Below, piece after piece: positions 953 through 6,023 of a DNA stretch of 6,043 nt. This DNA is from Deltaproteobacteria bacterium RIFOXYA12_FULL_61_11. GTDB lineage: Bacteria > Bdellovibrionota_F > JAHFAK01 > YA12-FULL-61-11. A program made the translations under genes and the position numbers. The notes under the pieces were generated by a model, which saw only the letters and a program-made list of their open reading frames with translations, did no database searches and was not told the DNA's origin. Location: assembly GCA_001799195.1 (NCBI GenBank), contig MGSU01000271.1:1-6043 (forward strand), read 5' to 3'. Numbering within the stretch: the first letter of the stretch is position 1; every line of letters starts with the position of its first letter.

Positions 953-1142
953 AAGTAATGAACGAAGTGCTAATAAAACCATGTTGGACTTCGGAGCCGC
1001 ACTGTTTTCTACGTTGGCTGTATGAGCCTGGTAATGAAAAGGCATGTGCTCGGATAATGATACTACAAGTGTGTAATACATCAGGATTGCCATCCCTATG
1101 AGGATATGTCGAATTGGATGAACAATGCACTTCCGTGGTCAT
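936..1142 (-). other. Doubtful 68-codon ORF coupled to the radical SAM stop
   Basis: The ATG at 1142-1140 overlaps the TGA stop (1141-1139) of the upstream radical SAM gene as ATGA, a typical arrangement for translational coupling. GAGGA and AGG lie about 9-18 bases upstream. The predicted peptide has cysteines at 7, 26 and 48, an RRK patch at 44-46 and a Ser/Thr/Phe-rich tail. It has no recognisable domain or signal peptide. Against it, codon use is AT-leaning at third positions, unlike the flanking genes, and its last codons run antisense into the 3' end of the DUF4097-like gene. It could be a small accessory or precursor peptide of the operon, but a chance ORF in AT-rich DNA is at least as likely. 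Confidence 0.2.
953..1138. other. AT-rich convergent intergenic island
   Basis: This stretch separates the convergent 3' ends of the DUF4097-like gene and the radical SAM operon. By my count 961-1140 is about 44% GC, against about 70% in a sampled part of the neighbouring gene (541-600). Besides the 68-codon minus-strand ORF, a 47-codon plus-strand ORF starts at 958 (ATG) and stops at 1101, preceded by GGGAAG. It has mixed codon use and no recognisable domain. A 6-bp inverted repeat (CGAAGT 963-968, ACTTCG 988-993) is present, but no classical terminator with a long T run is seen. No tRNA, insertion-sequence ends or attC site could be recognised. Confidence 0.5.
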
Positions 1143-1147
1143 TGTTC
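1120..1147. terminator. Hairpin at the 3' end of the radical SAM operon (possible terminator)
   Basis: GAACAATG at 1120-1127 is perfectly complementary to CATTGTTC at 1140-1147. Inside it, CAC (1128-1130) and GTG (1135-1137) can pair around a TTCC loop, leaving a two-base bulge. The structure covers the stop codon of the second radical SAM gene. Neither strand has a clear T run after the stem, so it is not a textbook intrinsic terminator. It may protect the 3' end or act on both convergent transcripts. Confidence 0.35.
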
Positions 1148-2389
1148 TGGCCTATTCCTCGGTATGGCCGTAAGGAAGGTACCGTACTCCTTGATCTCTT
1201 CCAGACGACAACTCCAGTAGAGCGTTCCCTCGTGCACGGTCATGTCCGGGCACCCATCACACATGTTCATCTTGCCGTCGGGCAGGAAGTCGATCGCCTG
1301 CAAGATGAGCAGAGACTGGGTGTGGACCTTCTCGCGGAACAGCTTGGGGTCGCGCAGGACCGCCTTGACCCAGGCCAGGGCCGCGGCGCGGACTCCTGCG
1401 TCGAGGAAGAAGAAGAGCGCCAGCATCAAGCGTCCCGCCGCGAGTTGCGCCCGGGTGCTCACCGCCAGGTAGCGGCCCTTGAACAGGTGATGGAGGGTCT
1501 GGGTCAGCTCCTGGAAGCGCGGTCCGGCGTAGCCGAGGACCGTGCCCCCGAGGACGAAGCGGGTGGCCAGGGTCCACTTGCTGCTCGCGAGGTCCTGGGT
1601 GCCAGAGAGGTAGGCAGAGGGCCGGTACAGAGGATCGGCCTCGGTCAGGGCAGCCACGACCTCCGAGGCCTCGACGGGTCGGAGAACTCCGAGTTCGGTA
1701 TCGCGGTAACGTTCGTCCGGAGCAACCTCGCGGCCGGCGGCAAAGGTCGTGAGGTGACCGGCCATGGTCGGGTCGCGGTAGAGGATGAAGTGGAAGCTGT
1801 GCACCGTGTCGGCATGTTCGGCGGCCCACCTCGACAGGAGACCGACCTCGTGCAGGTTCTTCTCGTGGACCGTGCAGTTGAAGCCGCAACAGGGTCCGTT
1901 CTCGGCAGCGAGCAGTTCGGCGTACTGCAGGCGCAACGGCAATAATGCGGCCTCGGAGGCAGCCTCAATTCCCTGCCTTGTCTGGGTAGTGTCCACATGG
2001 AAGGTGATCGAGGCTACTCCAGCACCCTGCAGCCGCCGTAGCAGTTCAGGGGTCAGGGCCAGCCCGTTGGTATTGAGCTGCGGCTTCCACCCCAGGGTTC
2101 GGACGAGTTCGACGAGTTCGACGAGTTCGGGGTGGACCAGGGGATCACCGCCGGCAATGGCCATGGCGTCGCTGCGGCGCAACCGGCGGAAGACCTCGAG
2201 TTCGGCGCGGAGCTGCTCGAGGCTCTTGTGACCGTCCTTGTGGGGGTCGCGATAACACCCTCGGCAGTGGAGATTGCAACGGGTGGTGATCTCGAGCCAG
2301 GACATGGCGTTGTCGGTGAGCGACCAGGGCAGCCGGTACATCCTTCCGTGATCGAGCAGACCGAGGCCCGAGCTGTTGCACGATTCCAT
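1139..2389 (-). CDS. Radical SAM protein, second gene of a paralogous pair
   Basis: This 416-aa protein is a radical SAM enzyme. CxxxCxxC at residues 38, 42 and 45, within TRCNLHCRGCY, should bind the [4Fe-4S] cluster that cleaves S-adenosylmethionine. GGDP at 80-83 replaces the usual GGEP of the SAM-binding loop. FHVDTTQTR lies near 131-139, YLSGTQDLASSKW at 260-272 and a hydrophobic helical stretch at about 319-345. CDGCPDMTVHEG follows with Cys 377, 380 and 394, possibly an auxiliary cluster site. The same elements occur in the upstream paralog at matching spacing. The start chosen is the ATG at 2389, because GGAG lies six bases before it. A GTG at 2401 would add four residues but has no ribosome binding site. 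It follows its paralog by 15 bases, so they are surely one operon. The substrate is unknown: the hydrophobic segment hints at a membrane or lipid substrate, and peptide modification is the main alternative. Confidence 0.9.
   Translation of the reverse strand: MESCNSSGLGLLDHGRMYRLPWSLTDNAMSWLEITTRCNLHCRGCYRDPHKDGHKSLEQLRAELEVFRRLRRSDAMAIAGGDPLVHPELVELVELVRTLGWKPQLNTNGLALTPELLRRLQGAGVASITFHVDTTQTRQGIEAASEAALLPLRLQYAELLAAENGPCCGFNCTVHEKNLHEVGLLSRWAAEHADTVHSFHFILYRDPTMAGHLTTFAAGREVAPDERYRDTELGVLRPVEASEVVAALTEADPLYRPSAYLSGTQDLASSKWTLATRFVLGGTVLGYAGPRFQELTQTLHHLFKGRYLAVSTRAQLAAGRLMLALFFFLDAGVRAAALAWVKAVLRDPKLFREKVHTQSLLILQAIDFLPDGKMNMCDGCPDMTVHEGTLYWSCRLEEIKEYGTFLTAIPRNRPEQ
2102..2128. repeat. Three tandem 9-bp repeats inside the radical SAM gene
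   Basis: GACGAGTTC is repeated three times without a mismatch, at 2102-2110, 2111-2119 and 2120-2128. On the coding strand it encodes ELV three times in the helix after the GGDP loop. The paralog has the same length here with unrelated codons, so the repeat did not expand the protein. Confidence 0.8.
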
Positions 2390-2395
2390 GCCAAG

Positions 2396-2399
2396 CTCC
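2396..2399 (-). promoter_or_regulatory. Ribosome binding site that decides the start at 2389
   Basis: On the minus strand GGAG (2399-2396) is followed by six bases and then ATG at 2389-2387. The in-frame GTG at 2401 overlaps this site and has only a T-rich, SD-free sequence upstream. ATG is therefore the preferred start. Confidence 0.6.
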
Positions 2400-2404
2400 A
2401 CGAG

Positions 2405-3685
2405 TTACATCAAAAAACGCGCTGAGTTCTTGACCTTGGCGTCGAGGTAATCGGCCGTGCACAAGGGCACCACCACTCCGTCCCGGACCGTGGCGTCGGG
2501 ACAATTCTGGCAGTACTCGAGTTCGCCGCTCGGCGCGAGCGAGGGTCCGCCCTGGAAGATGAAGCTCTTCTGGAAGATGCGCGCGCCGGGCCGCAGAAGC
2601 GTGGAAAGGAAGGCCAGGGTCCTGCCCATGAGGCGCAGGTCCAGGCAGGTCAGACAGTAGATCAGGCAGGCCAGCACGGCCTTGCCGCCGTTGGCCACCC
2701 GACCCGAGGGATAGGTACCGCGCACCTTCATCGAGAACCACTGGGCGAAGCGCAGGAAGTTCTTGAACCGATCGGTGGTGTGCAGGACTCTGGTGGAGCC
2801 ATCGGGCAAGGCAATGGTGAAGGAGAAGTAGAACAACCACTTCTTGGCCGCGAGGCTCCTGGTCGAGGCGATATAACCGAAGGGTTCCATGCCGAGACGC
2901 TCGTAGAGATAGGGGGCAACCTCATCGAGACCTACCTCCTGGCCAGCGAGGTCGCTCCCACCGCTGCGGCGATCGAGCACGCCCTCCCCCCCGGTGCCTC
3001 GATAACGCGCGATCATGGCGTCGAAGTCGGTGCAACAGGTGACCAGCATCCGGTGATACGAGGGATTGGTACAGAGGAAGCGGACCACGTGTGCGAGCTG
3101 GGGCAGGTTGTCCTGGTAGAGGGTGACATTGAGCGAACAGAAGAGCCCTTGGGCGTTGATGCGCCGGGCAAAGGCGAGGCGCAGCTCGTCGAGGTCGGCC
3201 TCGTTCGCACCCTTGGGAATATCCGGACGGTGCTGATGGGAATCGAGGTGCAGATAAATGGTCGAGAGGCCGGCCCTCTTGCACGCGGCGAGCAGCTCAT
3301 CGGTCAGCAGGAGGCCGTTGCTGAGCATCTGCACCACCACGCCCTTGCTCTTGGCATAGGCTATAATTTCTGGAAGTTGCGGATGAAGGGTCGGCTCGCC
3401 GCCGGCCAGGCTGATCGCGCTGACCCGGCGTTCCGAGACGATGAGGTCGAGCTCGGCCTTGATTTGTTCGAGCGGCTTGGTCGAACCGTGGCGGTCTTTA
3501 TAGCAGGCGCGACAACTGATGTTACAGGCCTGGTTGACCTCGATCACGCAGTGCGGGACGCTGCGCTTGTCGTAGGGCATGAGCATCGGCCGGCAGAGCT
3601 TGCCGCCGAGCACCAACTCGGCCGGGTCGTCCCCCTCCCGGGGCCGAAGTCCGGCACCCTCAAGAGCCACGTCACTCGTCGTCAT
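2405..3685 (-). CDS. Radical SAM protein, first gene of a paralogous pair
   Basis: This 426-aa protein is a radical SAM enzyme with CxxxCxxC at residues 54, 58 and 61 (QACNISCRACYKD), GGEP at 95-98, SNG at 122-124 and an HLDSHQHR segment at 146-153. Further on come YIASTRSLAAKKW at 271-283 and a cysteine-containing hydrophobic stretch at about 335-364. The C-terminal motif CQNCPDATVRDG has Cys 392, 395 and 409. That last motif, CxxCPDxTVxxGxxxxxC, has the same spacing in the downstream paralog and could hold a second iron-sulfur cluster. This is not a standard SPASM domain, and I cannot assign a named subfamily. The ATG at 3685 is preceded by GAGGTG with good spacing, which fixes the start. 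It is first in the operon and divergent from the membrane glycosyltransferase. The general enzyme class is secure; the reaction and substrate are unknown. Lipid or lipid-linked glycan modification is inferred from the hydrophobic segment and the neighbour. Confidence 0.92.
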   Translation of the reverse strand: MTTSDVALEGAGLRPREGDDPAELVLGGKLCRPMLMPYDKRSVPHCVIEVNQACNISCRACYKDRHGSTKPLEQIKAELDLIVSERRVSAISLAGGEPTLHPQLPEIIAYAKSKGVVVQMLSNGLLLTDELLAACKRAGLSTIYLHLDSHQHRPDIPKGANEADLDELRLAFARRINAQGLFCSLNVTLYQDNLPQLAHVVRFLCTNPSYHRMLVTCCTDFDAMIARYRGTGGEGVLDRRSGGSDLAGQEVGLDEVAPYLYERLGMEPFGYIASTRSLAAKKWLFYFSFTIALPDGSTRVLHTTDRFKNFLRFAQWFSMKVRGTYPSGRVANGGKAVLACLIYCLTCLDLRLMGRTLAFLSTLLRPGARIFQKSFIFQGGPSLAPSGELEYCQNCPDATVRDGVVVPLCTADYLDAKVKNSARFLM

Positions 3686-3881: not shown

Positions 3882-6023
3882 ATGGTCCTCGAGCAATCGA
3901 TACACCCTCTCCCGAGTGATCAGCCTCGCCTGCTGCATGCAACGTTGGTCGTAGGTTTGGGCCTCAGCCTGCTCGCCCGGTCGGTGCTCATCTGGATCCT
4001 GCCCCAAACCGACGACGACAGCTTCACCTCGATGCTCCTGGCCGACCTCTTCTGCCGAAACACCGAGGTGCCCCACAACCAGCCCTTGCCGTCGATCCTG
4101 TTCTGCTGGGGCTCGACCTTTCTCGGCACCAACGTGGTGGTCTACCGCTCGTTCGAGGTCCTGGCGACCGCGGCGACGGCCTTCCTCGTCTATCGTCTCG
4201 GCAGAACCCTGTACGATCGGACCACAGGGCTCCTGGCCTGTCAGCTCTTCACCTGCCTGCCCCTCTCCTTCTGTCTTTCGTGCATCGTGAAGACCTACAG
4301 CCTCGTGATGCTGTTCTCGGCTGCGGCACTCGTGTTTTTTTTCAGTGCTTTGAGACGGAACAGCCTCGTATTGGCCGCAGGGAGCGGACTCTGCGTCTTC
4401 TCGGCCTTCGCCTGCAAGAACCTCGGCGCCATCGGGATCGCGCCGGCCATGGTCCTGACCTTGGTGGCCCTGTGGCGCTCGCGACGAGAACCCCGGGCAA
4501 GACGGGTATTCGCCTTGTCCCTCACATCGACGCTCGCCTGCTGTCTCCCGCTGGGTCTGCTCATCTGGTGGCGGTTGCCGACCTATGGCAGCTCCATCCT
4601 CAACGACTTCGCCATCTCCAGCCGTCTGCGCCTCTGGCTCGACGCGAGGCCGCTGCCCTGGCAAGATTTCCAGTCCTACTCGAGTATCCTCCCCTACGTG
4701 TTCCTCCCTGCCCTCGGATGGTGGGCGTGGAACCACCTCCGGGCACGCTGGTCCGACCCCGCCCGAAGACCTTTGCCGGAACCACCCGATCGAGGGATGG
4801 AGTCGCTCGCTCCACGGCTGATCCCGGCAGTGCTCCTTGGGAGCAACCTCGGACTGGTGTTCCTCAATCCCATCAACCATATACCGAGAGGACTGGCTCC
4901 GTCGTTGCCGATCCTGGCCCTCTCGACCGCCGCGGTCCTCGCCGGTCTCTACCGGGAAGCCGCATCCCGGCGAGTTGCCCTCTCGTGGCTCCTGGCCCTA
5001 GCCGGGGTCTCCTGCATCTATCCGGGGCTCTTCCTCGCGAACCTCTGCCACCTCTGGGAGCTCGACGCCTTTTTCACCATGGCGACCCCCCAGGGCATTC
5101 TCCTGGTCTTCGGTTGCATCCTCGCAGTACAACTCGTCCTGTTCGCGCTCCTGCACCTCGTCCAGCGCGGACCGGCACCCGTGTTCCTGGGTCGGTGTAG
5201 GACCGGGGCCATGCTGGTAGTGGTCCTCAGCTCCACCCTCTTCGGTATCCTCTACGGCGCCTCACCCCTCTGGCAGCTCGGCAAGGCGATGCAACCGAAC
5301 CTGGATGCTCTGGCCACGCTACCCTCCTGCAGAGTCATCGGCGGAGGAGACGCCGTCACCTTCCTCGGCTACCCGGCCTTCGCCAATTTCCACAGTCTCC
5401 CGCGCAAGGACCTGATCCGGGCCTTTTCCGGGGACCTCGAGGCGGTCCTGCGCCATTACTCCATCGCCCATATCCTCCATCCTCGCGAGCCCCAGGAGGT
5501 TGGACAGCACATCCTGACGTCGATCGCACAGCAGTACCAACTCGGTCCGGTCAGCCTGGAAACCCTGCTCCTCGGCCGCACCGACTACCACCGGATCTAT
5601 GACAACGGCTCGGTCTCGGTCCTCCACTTCCCCGCTATCCGATCCGTCGCGTGCGACAACCACCTGCTCCTCGACCGGCACCGCCCACCGCTTGAAGTCG
5701 ACACGATCGAGGCCAGTCTGACCCTTCGCGCCGTTCCCGCTCGTCCGGGCGAGTGGTCGCTGACCCTTGCCAACCGGAGCAAACACGCCAAGGCCTTCCG
5801 ATTGAGCTTCCACGATGCACCTCCGGAACAGACCACGGCTCTCGATGAGCGGGGAATAGCCCCCCCCCTCTGGTCGGCGACCAACACCGTCGCTTCTGAA
5901 TGGAGGATGAGTCTACGGCCGACCGACTGGTCCGTACGGCAGGGTTTTTTAGTGCGGGCTCAGCAGGGAACCAACCCCACAGGCCTCACGGTCTTCCTCG
6001 GTACCAACGCAGGAGTGGATTAA
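3882..6023 (+). CDS. GT39/ArnT-like GT-C membrane glycosyltransferase
   Basis: This 713-aa integral membrane protein has about ten or more predicted membrane segments between residues 20 and 460, followed by a soluble region of about 250 residues. The first extracytoplasmic loop contains TDDDSF (Asp 44-46) at the place where GT-C enzymes carry their catalytic or metal-binding acidic residues. HNQPLP (65-70), an RLGRTLYDRTTGLLA stretch and KTYSLVMLF follow in the order seen in GT39/ArnT/PMT-like proteins. The family moves a sugar from a polyprenyl-phosphate donor to a lipid or protein acceptor on the outer face of the membrane. The exact sugar and acceptor cannot be told. The C-terminal part (about 465-713) has an alpha/beta-looking section and then a beta-rich end; I do not recognise it. 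An in-frame TGA lies one codon before the ATG, so no longer start is possible. The ribosome binding site is weak. It is divergent from the radical SAM operon, with a shared control region of 196 bases. Confidence 0.85.
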   Translation: MVLEQSIHPLPSDQPRLLHATLVVGLGLSLLARSVLIWILPQTDDDSFTSMLLADLFCRNTEVPHNQPLPSILFCWGSTFLGTNVVVYRSFEVLATAATAFLVYRLGRTLYDRTTGLLACQLFTCLPLSFCLSCIVKTYSLVMLFSAAALVFFFSALRRNSLVLAAGSGLCVFSAFACKNLGAIGIAPAMVLTLVALWRSRREPRARRVFALSLTSTLACCLPLGLLIWWRLPTYGSSILNDFAISSRLRLWLDARPLPWQDFQSYSSILPYVFLPALGWWAWNHLRARWSDPARRPLPEPPDRGMESLAPRLIPAVLLGSNLGLVFLNPINHIPRGLAPSLPILALSTAAVLAGLYREAASRRVALSWLLALAGVSCIYPGLFLANLCHLWELDAFFTMATPQGILLVFGCILAVQLVLFALLHLVQRGPAPVFLGRCRTGAMLVVVLSSTLFGILYGASPLWQLGKAMQPNLDALATLPSCRVIGGGDAVTFLGYPAFANFHSLPRKDLIRAFSGDLEAVLRHYSIAHILHPREPQEVGQHILTSIAQQYQLGPVSLETLLLGRTDYHRIYDNGSVSVLHFPAIRSVACDNHLLLDRHRPPLEVDTIEASLTLRAVPARPGEWSLTLANRSKHAKAFRLSFHDAPPEQTTALDERGIAPPLWSATNTVASEWRMSLRPTDWSVRQGFLVRAQQGTNPTGLTVFLGTNAGVD

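Follow-up and report, generated by a model that had tools for sequence, protein, structure and literature searches.

The window analysed here is the whole of contig C271, 6,043 bases of a 4.64-Mb draft genome, and it carries on its minus strand two adjacent genes for radical SAM proteins, here called A and B. The genes and the motifs considered below lie at the following positions.

2405..3685, minus strand: gene A, radical SAM protein of 426 aa, first of the pair (PF04055 at 1.5e-16 and full-length homology to B)
3503..3526, minus strand: A, CxxxCxxC motif of the SAM cluster, C54-C61 (sequence motif)
3227..3250, minus strand: A, HxDxxQxR, residues 146-153 (sequence motif)
3137..3139, minus strand: A, C183, the fourth non-SAM cysteine common to the family (alignment)
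2624..2680, minus strand: A, most hydrophobic helical stretch, residues 336-354, AVLACLIYCLTCLDLRLMG (sequence)
2459..2512, minus strand: A, C-x2-C-x13-C, predicted auxiliary-cluster motif, C392, C395 and C409 (sequence motif)
1139..2401, minus strand: gene B, radical SAM protein of 420 aa counted from GTG 2401 (PF04055 at 2.1e-17 and membership of the B-type family)
2255..2278, minus strand: B, CxxxCxxC motif of the SAM cluster, C42-C49 (invariant in 36 of 36 B-type proteins)
1976..1999, minus strand: B, HxDxxQxR, residues 135-142 (all four residues invariant, 36 of 36)
1886..1888, minus strand: B, C172, invariant (alignment and model)
1373..1429, minus strand: B, most hydrophobic helical stretch, residues 325-343, LMLALFFFLDAGVRAAALA (sequence; helices 317-356 in the model)
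1208..1261, minus strand: B, C-x2-C-x13-C, predicted auxiliary-cluster motif, C381, C384 and C398 (invariant; spacing of MoaA 1TV7)

Both open reading frames, which an earlier sequence-only reading had described as tandem radical SAM paralogs, were confirmed at these positions and on this strand. BLASTP aligned the two proteins end to end, C-terminus included, with 28% identity across 411 columns (E=1e-42), indicating that the likeness is not due to chance. PF04055 scores of 61.5 bits for A and 64.2 bits for B, against a cut-off of 29.5, place both in the radical SAM superfamily. Gene B probably starts at the ATG at 2389, which stands behind a GGAG and gives 416 aa, rather than at the GTG at 2401; read directly, the gap from the stop codon of A is 15 nt to the former and 3 nt to the latter. 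On the plus strand, a membrane protein of 713 aa with a PMT_2 domain (dolichyl-phosphate-mannose / ArnT type glycosyltransferase; 3882-6023) diverges from gene A, and a DUF4097 protein of 259 aa (173-952), which has a signal-like N-terminus and carries repeats of SGSGD[VI]E, converges with gene B. A search for RNA features found none.

Searching genome contigs with B returned a relative of 43% identity in a Bacteroidetes MAG (L010), and B-type genes were counted with a three-sequence profile. Such genes occur in 27 of the 296 genomes of the phylum of that MAG, the Bacteroidota (about 9%), in 4 of 45 genomes of another phylum, and in 3 of 386 bacteria-wide genomes, the genome of the window included. 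This last genome holds a third copy of the family on contig C50 (L009:12560-13846, minus strand), which is 52% identical to B and adjoins a family 2 glycosyltransferase and a Sulfotransfer_3 protein. In a phylogenetic tree, B and the C50 copy were sisters inside the B clade, and A branched apart from all 38 B-type rows; because its branch is very long, its exact place is unsure. Four Bacteroidota genomes (G459, G479, G502 and G679) carry two B-type genes each, on separate contigs and not in tandem. One further B-type gene, 45% identical to B, was found in an IMG/VR contig (L088:4953-6254, plus strand), flanked by ORFs that by eye resemble phage tail proteins and transposases.

When 36 B-type proteins were aligned, exactly seven cysteines proved invariant, namely the SAM triad, C172, C381, C384 and C398, and A has all seven. 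The C-terminal motif reads CQNCPDATVRDGVVVPLC in A (residues 392-409) and CDGCPDMTVHEGTLYWSC in B (residues 381-398). The shared CxxCPDxTVxxGxxxxxC pattern that had been noticed at the two C-termini is therefore present in both proteins, and its three cysteines, whose absence from close homologs would have counted against a defined subfamily, are retained throughout the alignment. The C-x2-C-x13-C spacing is exact in 30 of the 36 B-type rows and in A. The other six (L077, L078, L081, L082, L083 and L084) have five extra residues mid-hairpin between C384 and C398 (x18), an insertion that fits a hairpin turn. The invariant C172 of B, equivalent to C183 of A, had escaped the earlier reading; it opens a barrel strand (171-178) in the B model and is a candidate for the fourth ligand of the cluster or for a catalytic role. 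CxxxCxxC and HxDxxQxR were found as described in both proteins, starting at A54/B42 and A146/B135, and HxDxxQxR is invariant across the 36 B-type proteins, as is the KW pair at A282-283 and B275-276. Within the longer pattern Y[IL]xxTxxLAxxKW, the 'LA' does not characterise the family; its columns are neither invariant nor nearly so, and the consensus at this place reads YLNGTEKxDSFKW. The distance from KW to CxxC, given as 105-109 residues, was off by one, with 108 residues from W to CxxC in A and 104 in B. Residues that are invariant in the B type, for example R281, E298, H305, Q368, M380, R399 and E402, are missing from A. A and B are anciently diverged homologues, and the family to which B belongs is coherent and has no name.

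Among the described subfamilies of NCBIfam, no model reached its cut-off with A or B, so that neither protein, let alone both, gave a clear match. The proposal that these proteins belong to a defined subfamily of radical SAM enzymes, marked by conserved cysteines at the C-terminus, is thus borne out; its members occur in several phyla of bacteria, and no curated NCBIfam model describes it. The best NCBIfam match of both proteins was the TrsS radical SAM (seleno)protein (NF045646), which scored 71.8 and 71.2 bits against a cut-off of 490 bits; the match covers the SAM core and stops at residue 203-205. Matches in PHROGs and in the plasmid search were confined to the core as well. In our literature search, the CDGCPD motif was not printed in any paper found, and a search on Tes, twitch and Bacteroidota returned nothing. 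Neither the superfamily nor the cluster motif nor the fold is new, but the family has no curated name.

The sequence-only reading had considered the C-terminal motif unrecognised and neither SPASM nor twitch. We compared it with tail spacings taken from retrieved PDB sequences of MoaA and Tes. The C-terminus of S. aureus MoaA (GTP 3',8-cyclase; PDB 1TV7) reads CSTCTRARLSSDGKFYGC, and its spacing is exactly C-x2-C-x13-C. The MoaA domain is classed as twitch, and its cluster is held by three cysteines with an open iron that binds GTP (PMC6231123, PMC9012708). In the B model, strands 387-390 and 393-396 are followed by a helix at 397-406, the hairpin and then helix across which the MoaA-type motif is spaced. 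Given the identical spacing, the hairpin-like insertion and the model, the view that the cysteine site falls outside both SPASM and twitch is unsupported, and a real family signature can now be told apart from the impression of an unclassified cluster. MoaA and A/B both have a Gly ahead of the second hairpin strand, shifted by one position in A/B. A/B differ from MoaA by an extra hydrophobic helical insert and by conserving PD and WSCRxEE in place of MoaA's residues, and NCBIfam MoaA models matched only their core, far under cut-off. SPASM enzymes (PqqE, SuiB, anSME) share the radical SAM barrel and a C-terminal auxiliary cluster region, with fold Z scores of 11-14. The SPASM motif is defined as CX9-15GX4C-gap-CX2CX5CX3C-gap-C (PMC6231123); this seven-cysteine, two-cluster motif is missing from A/B, in which the C-terminal invariant cysteines number only three, plus C172. 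The auxiliary site may have three ligands and an open iron, or four ligands with C172.

To examine the remainder of the proteins, we used AlphaFold models built without templates and with four sequences each (B, m17416e5da9f8, pTM 0.78; A, m0f148ec7f54a, pTM 0.69). Confidence was moderate (mean pLDDT 69.5 and 60.7) and lowest around the C-terminal cysteines. The best fold match of both was the archaeal tetraether lipid synthase Tes/GDGT-MAS (7TOL), which joins the tails of membrane lipids, with Z 23.7 over 305 residues for B and Z 22.2 over 294 residues for A. The match extends over most of the chain, but pLDDT is low in the C-terminal part of the models. Foldseek ranked 7TOL and 7TOM first for B. 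Tes was also the best PDB match by sequence (E=1.3e-24, profile A1), in the SAM core only, and this core homology recurred with a profile E of about 1e-21. Profile-profile alignment with bacterial Tes homologues detected no homology outside residues 25-205, and the C-terminal halves gave none whether aligned whole or cropped, locally or globally, or against the 57-residue MjTes tail. The likeness to Tes in the C-terminal half is one of predicted structure only.

Several features set A and B apart from Tes. Their scores against the Tes model NF045702 were 68.2 bits (A) and 67.4 bits (B), compared with a cut-off of 450 bits. Tes carries rubredoxin-like and [4Fe-4S]N domains N-terminal of the SAM core (PMC9433317), and these are absent from A and B because the SAM motif starts as early as residue 54 or 42. 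Tes homologues place their cysteines as CHPxC mid-protein and C-x14-C near the end, with Met439 used alongside them in Tes, whereas A/B have C-x2-C-x13-C. Common to Tes and A/B is a C-terminal cysteine site that lies beyond hydrophobic helices. In Tes, the second lipid pocket is built from amphipathic helices, both lipid sites have the C-terminal cluster next to them, and a carbon of the substrate becomes bonded to a cluster sulfur ahead of C-C coupling (PMC9433317). The hydrophobic helical stretches of A and B fall in the region that matches these lipid-pocket helices. The Bacteroidota member L010 lacks a strongly hydrophobic stretch.

From the homology, the invariant cysteines, the MoaA spacing and the predicted fold, we infer the type of the auxiliary cluster and its ligation, a lipid substrate and the reaction. 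We put at about even chances the proposal that A and B are radical SAM enzymes with one MoaA-like auxiliary cluster each on a Tes-like scaffold, acting on long-chain lipids. Each protein would bind one SAM [4Fe-4S] cluster and, via the C-x2-C-x13-C hairpin, one auxiliary [4Fe-4S] cluster, with the hydrophobic helices sitting between the barrel and the C-terminal cluster as in Tes. A lipid would lie buried among these helices, the 5'-deoxyadenosyl radical would abstract a hydrogen from its aliphatic chain, and the auxiliary cluster would then hold or oxidise the resulting carbon radical, as in the tail coupling of Tes. A and B would work as stand-alone enzymes, in which the auxiliary cluster may serve as radical holder or electron acceptor. 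The substrate of A probably differs from that of B, since A keeps all the cysteines but has lost many invariants of the B-type C-terminal half. Among the genes neighbouring the family no lipid pathway was found; the only pointers that way are isolated instances, one of a fatty acid hydroxylase and one of a CMAS.

An unlikely but still noteworthy alternative is that A and B are MoaA/twitch-type enzymes whose substrate, a small polar metabolite or a nucleotide, is bound by the open iron of the auxiliary cluster. The spacing identical to MoaA would suit such a substrate. So would the fold comparison, in which MoaA comes second to Tes for both models at about Z 15.6; in MoaA itself the open iron is where the substrate attaches (PMC9012708). 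By contrast, Tes outscores MoaA by 7-8 Z units with about 50 more residues aligned, a hydrophobic helical insert precedes the motif in the family, and the Pfam C-terminal MoaA domain was not reported at E<=1.

Somewhat less probable still is that A and B form an obligate heteromeric or sequential pair, in which A might be a degenerate accessory subunit. The two genes are adjacent on the same strand, 3-15 nt apart and probably co-transcribed, and A retains all the cysteines while many B-invariant residues are gone. However, the third copy (C50) of the same genome lacks A, and an A-like tandem partner was found at none of 37 other B-type loci. A search of 386 bacteria-wide and 395 Bacteroidota genomes (about 780) revealed no orthologue of A; what it returned were weaker matches to proteins of the B type or to generic radical SAM proteins, the best in Bacteroidota scoring 127 bits against 981 for A itself. 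Since B stands alone in other genomes, it does not need A. No recurrence of the tandem pair was thus seen at the 37 other loci, and the suggestion of sequential or heteromeric action drawn from the adjacency finds no support. The one radical SAM protein that neighbours a B-type gene, at position +1 (L065:8843-9877, minus strand), was considered as a counterpart of A and rejected; it bears a weak match to DUF3463, a domain known from the hopanoid enzyme HpnH.

It is equally doubtful that A and B are peptide (RiPP) or protein maturases of the SPASM/twitch group: the SPASM and twitch enzymes include many maturases (PMC6231123) and several maturases appear among the sub-threshold NCBIfam matches, but no RRE-like N-terminal domain is present, the SAM motif of B starting at residue 42, the family is conserved as a stand-alone gene, and clustering of the genes beside the 37 loci yielded no recurrent neighbour or peptide precursor, a few genomes sharing one stretch aside.

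Lipid-chain chemistry on a Tes-like scaffold is the reading we favour. We know of only a few enzymes that join alkyl chains, Tes and Gms in archaea and Mss in bacteria. That A and B found a bacterial radical SAM class coupling, or modifying in some other way, unactivated carbons in the tails of membrane lipids, separate from Tes and as a candidate also from Mss, is a bolder proposal that we regard as improbable at present. Nevertheless, an un-named family combining a Tes-like predicted fold with a MoaA-like site offers a testable lead to lipid-tail chemistry in common bacteria; the bolder proposal, if true, would imply that Bacteroidota and other phyla make a type of lipid not yet recognised, with the help of a MoaA-type auxiliary cluster. 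The genome of the window also encodes a Tes/TrsS-like radical SAM protein (L094:1021-2385, minus strand), which scored 186 bits with TrsS and 147 bits with Tes, both under cut-off, and whose N-terminus, CPRC...C.EHG, resembles the rubredoxin domain of Tes.
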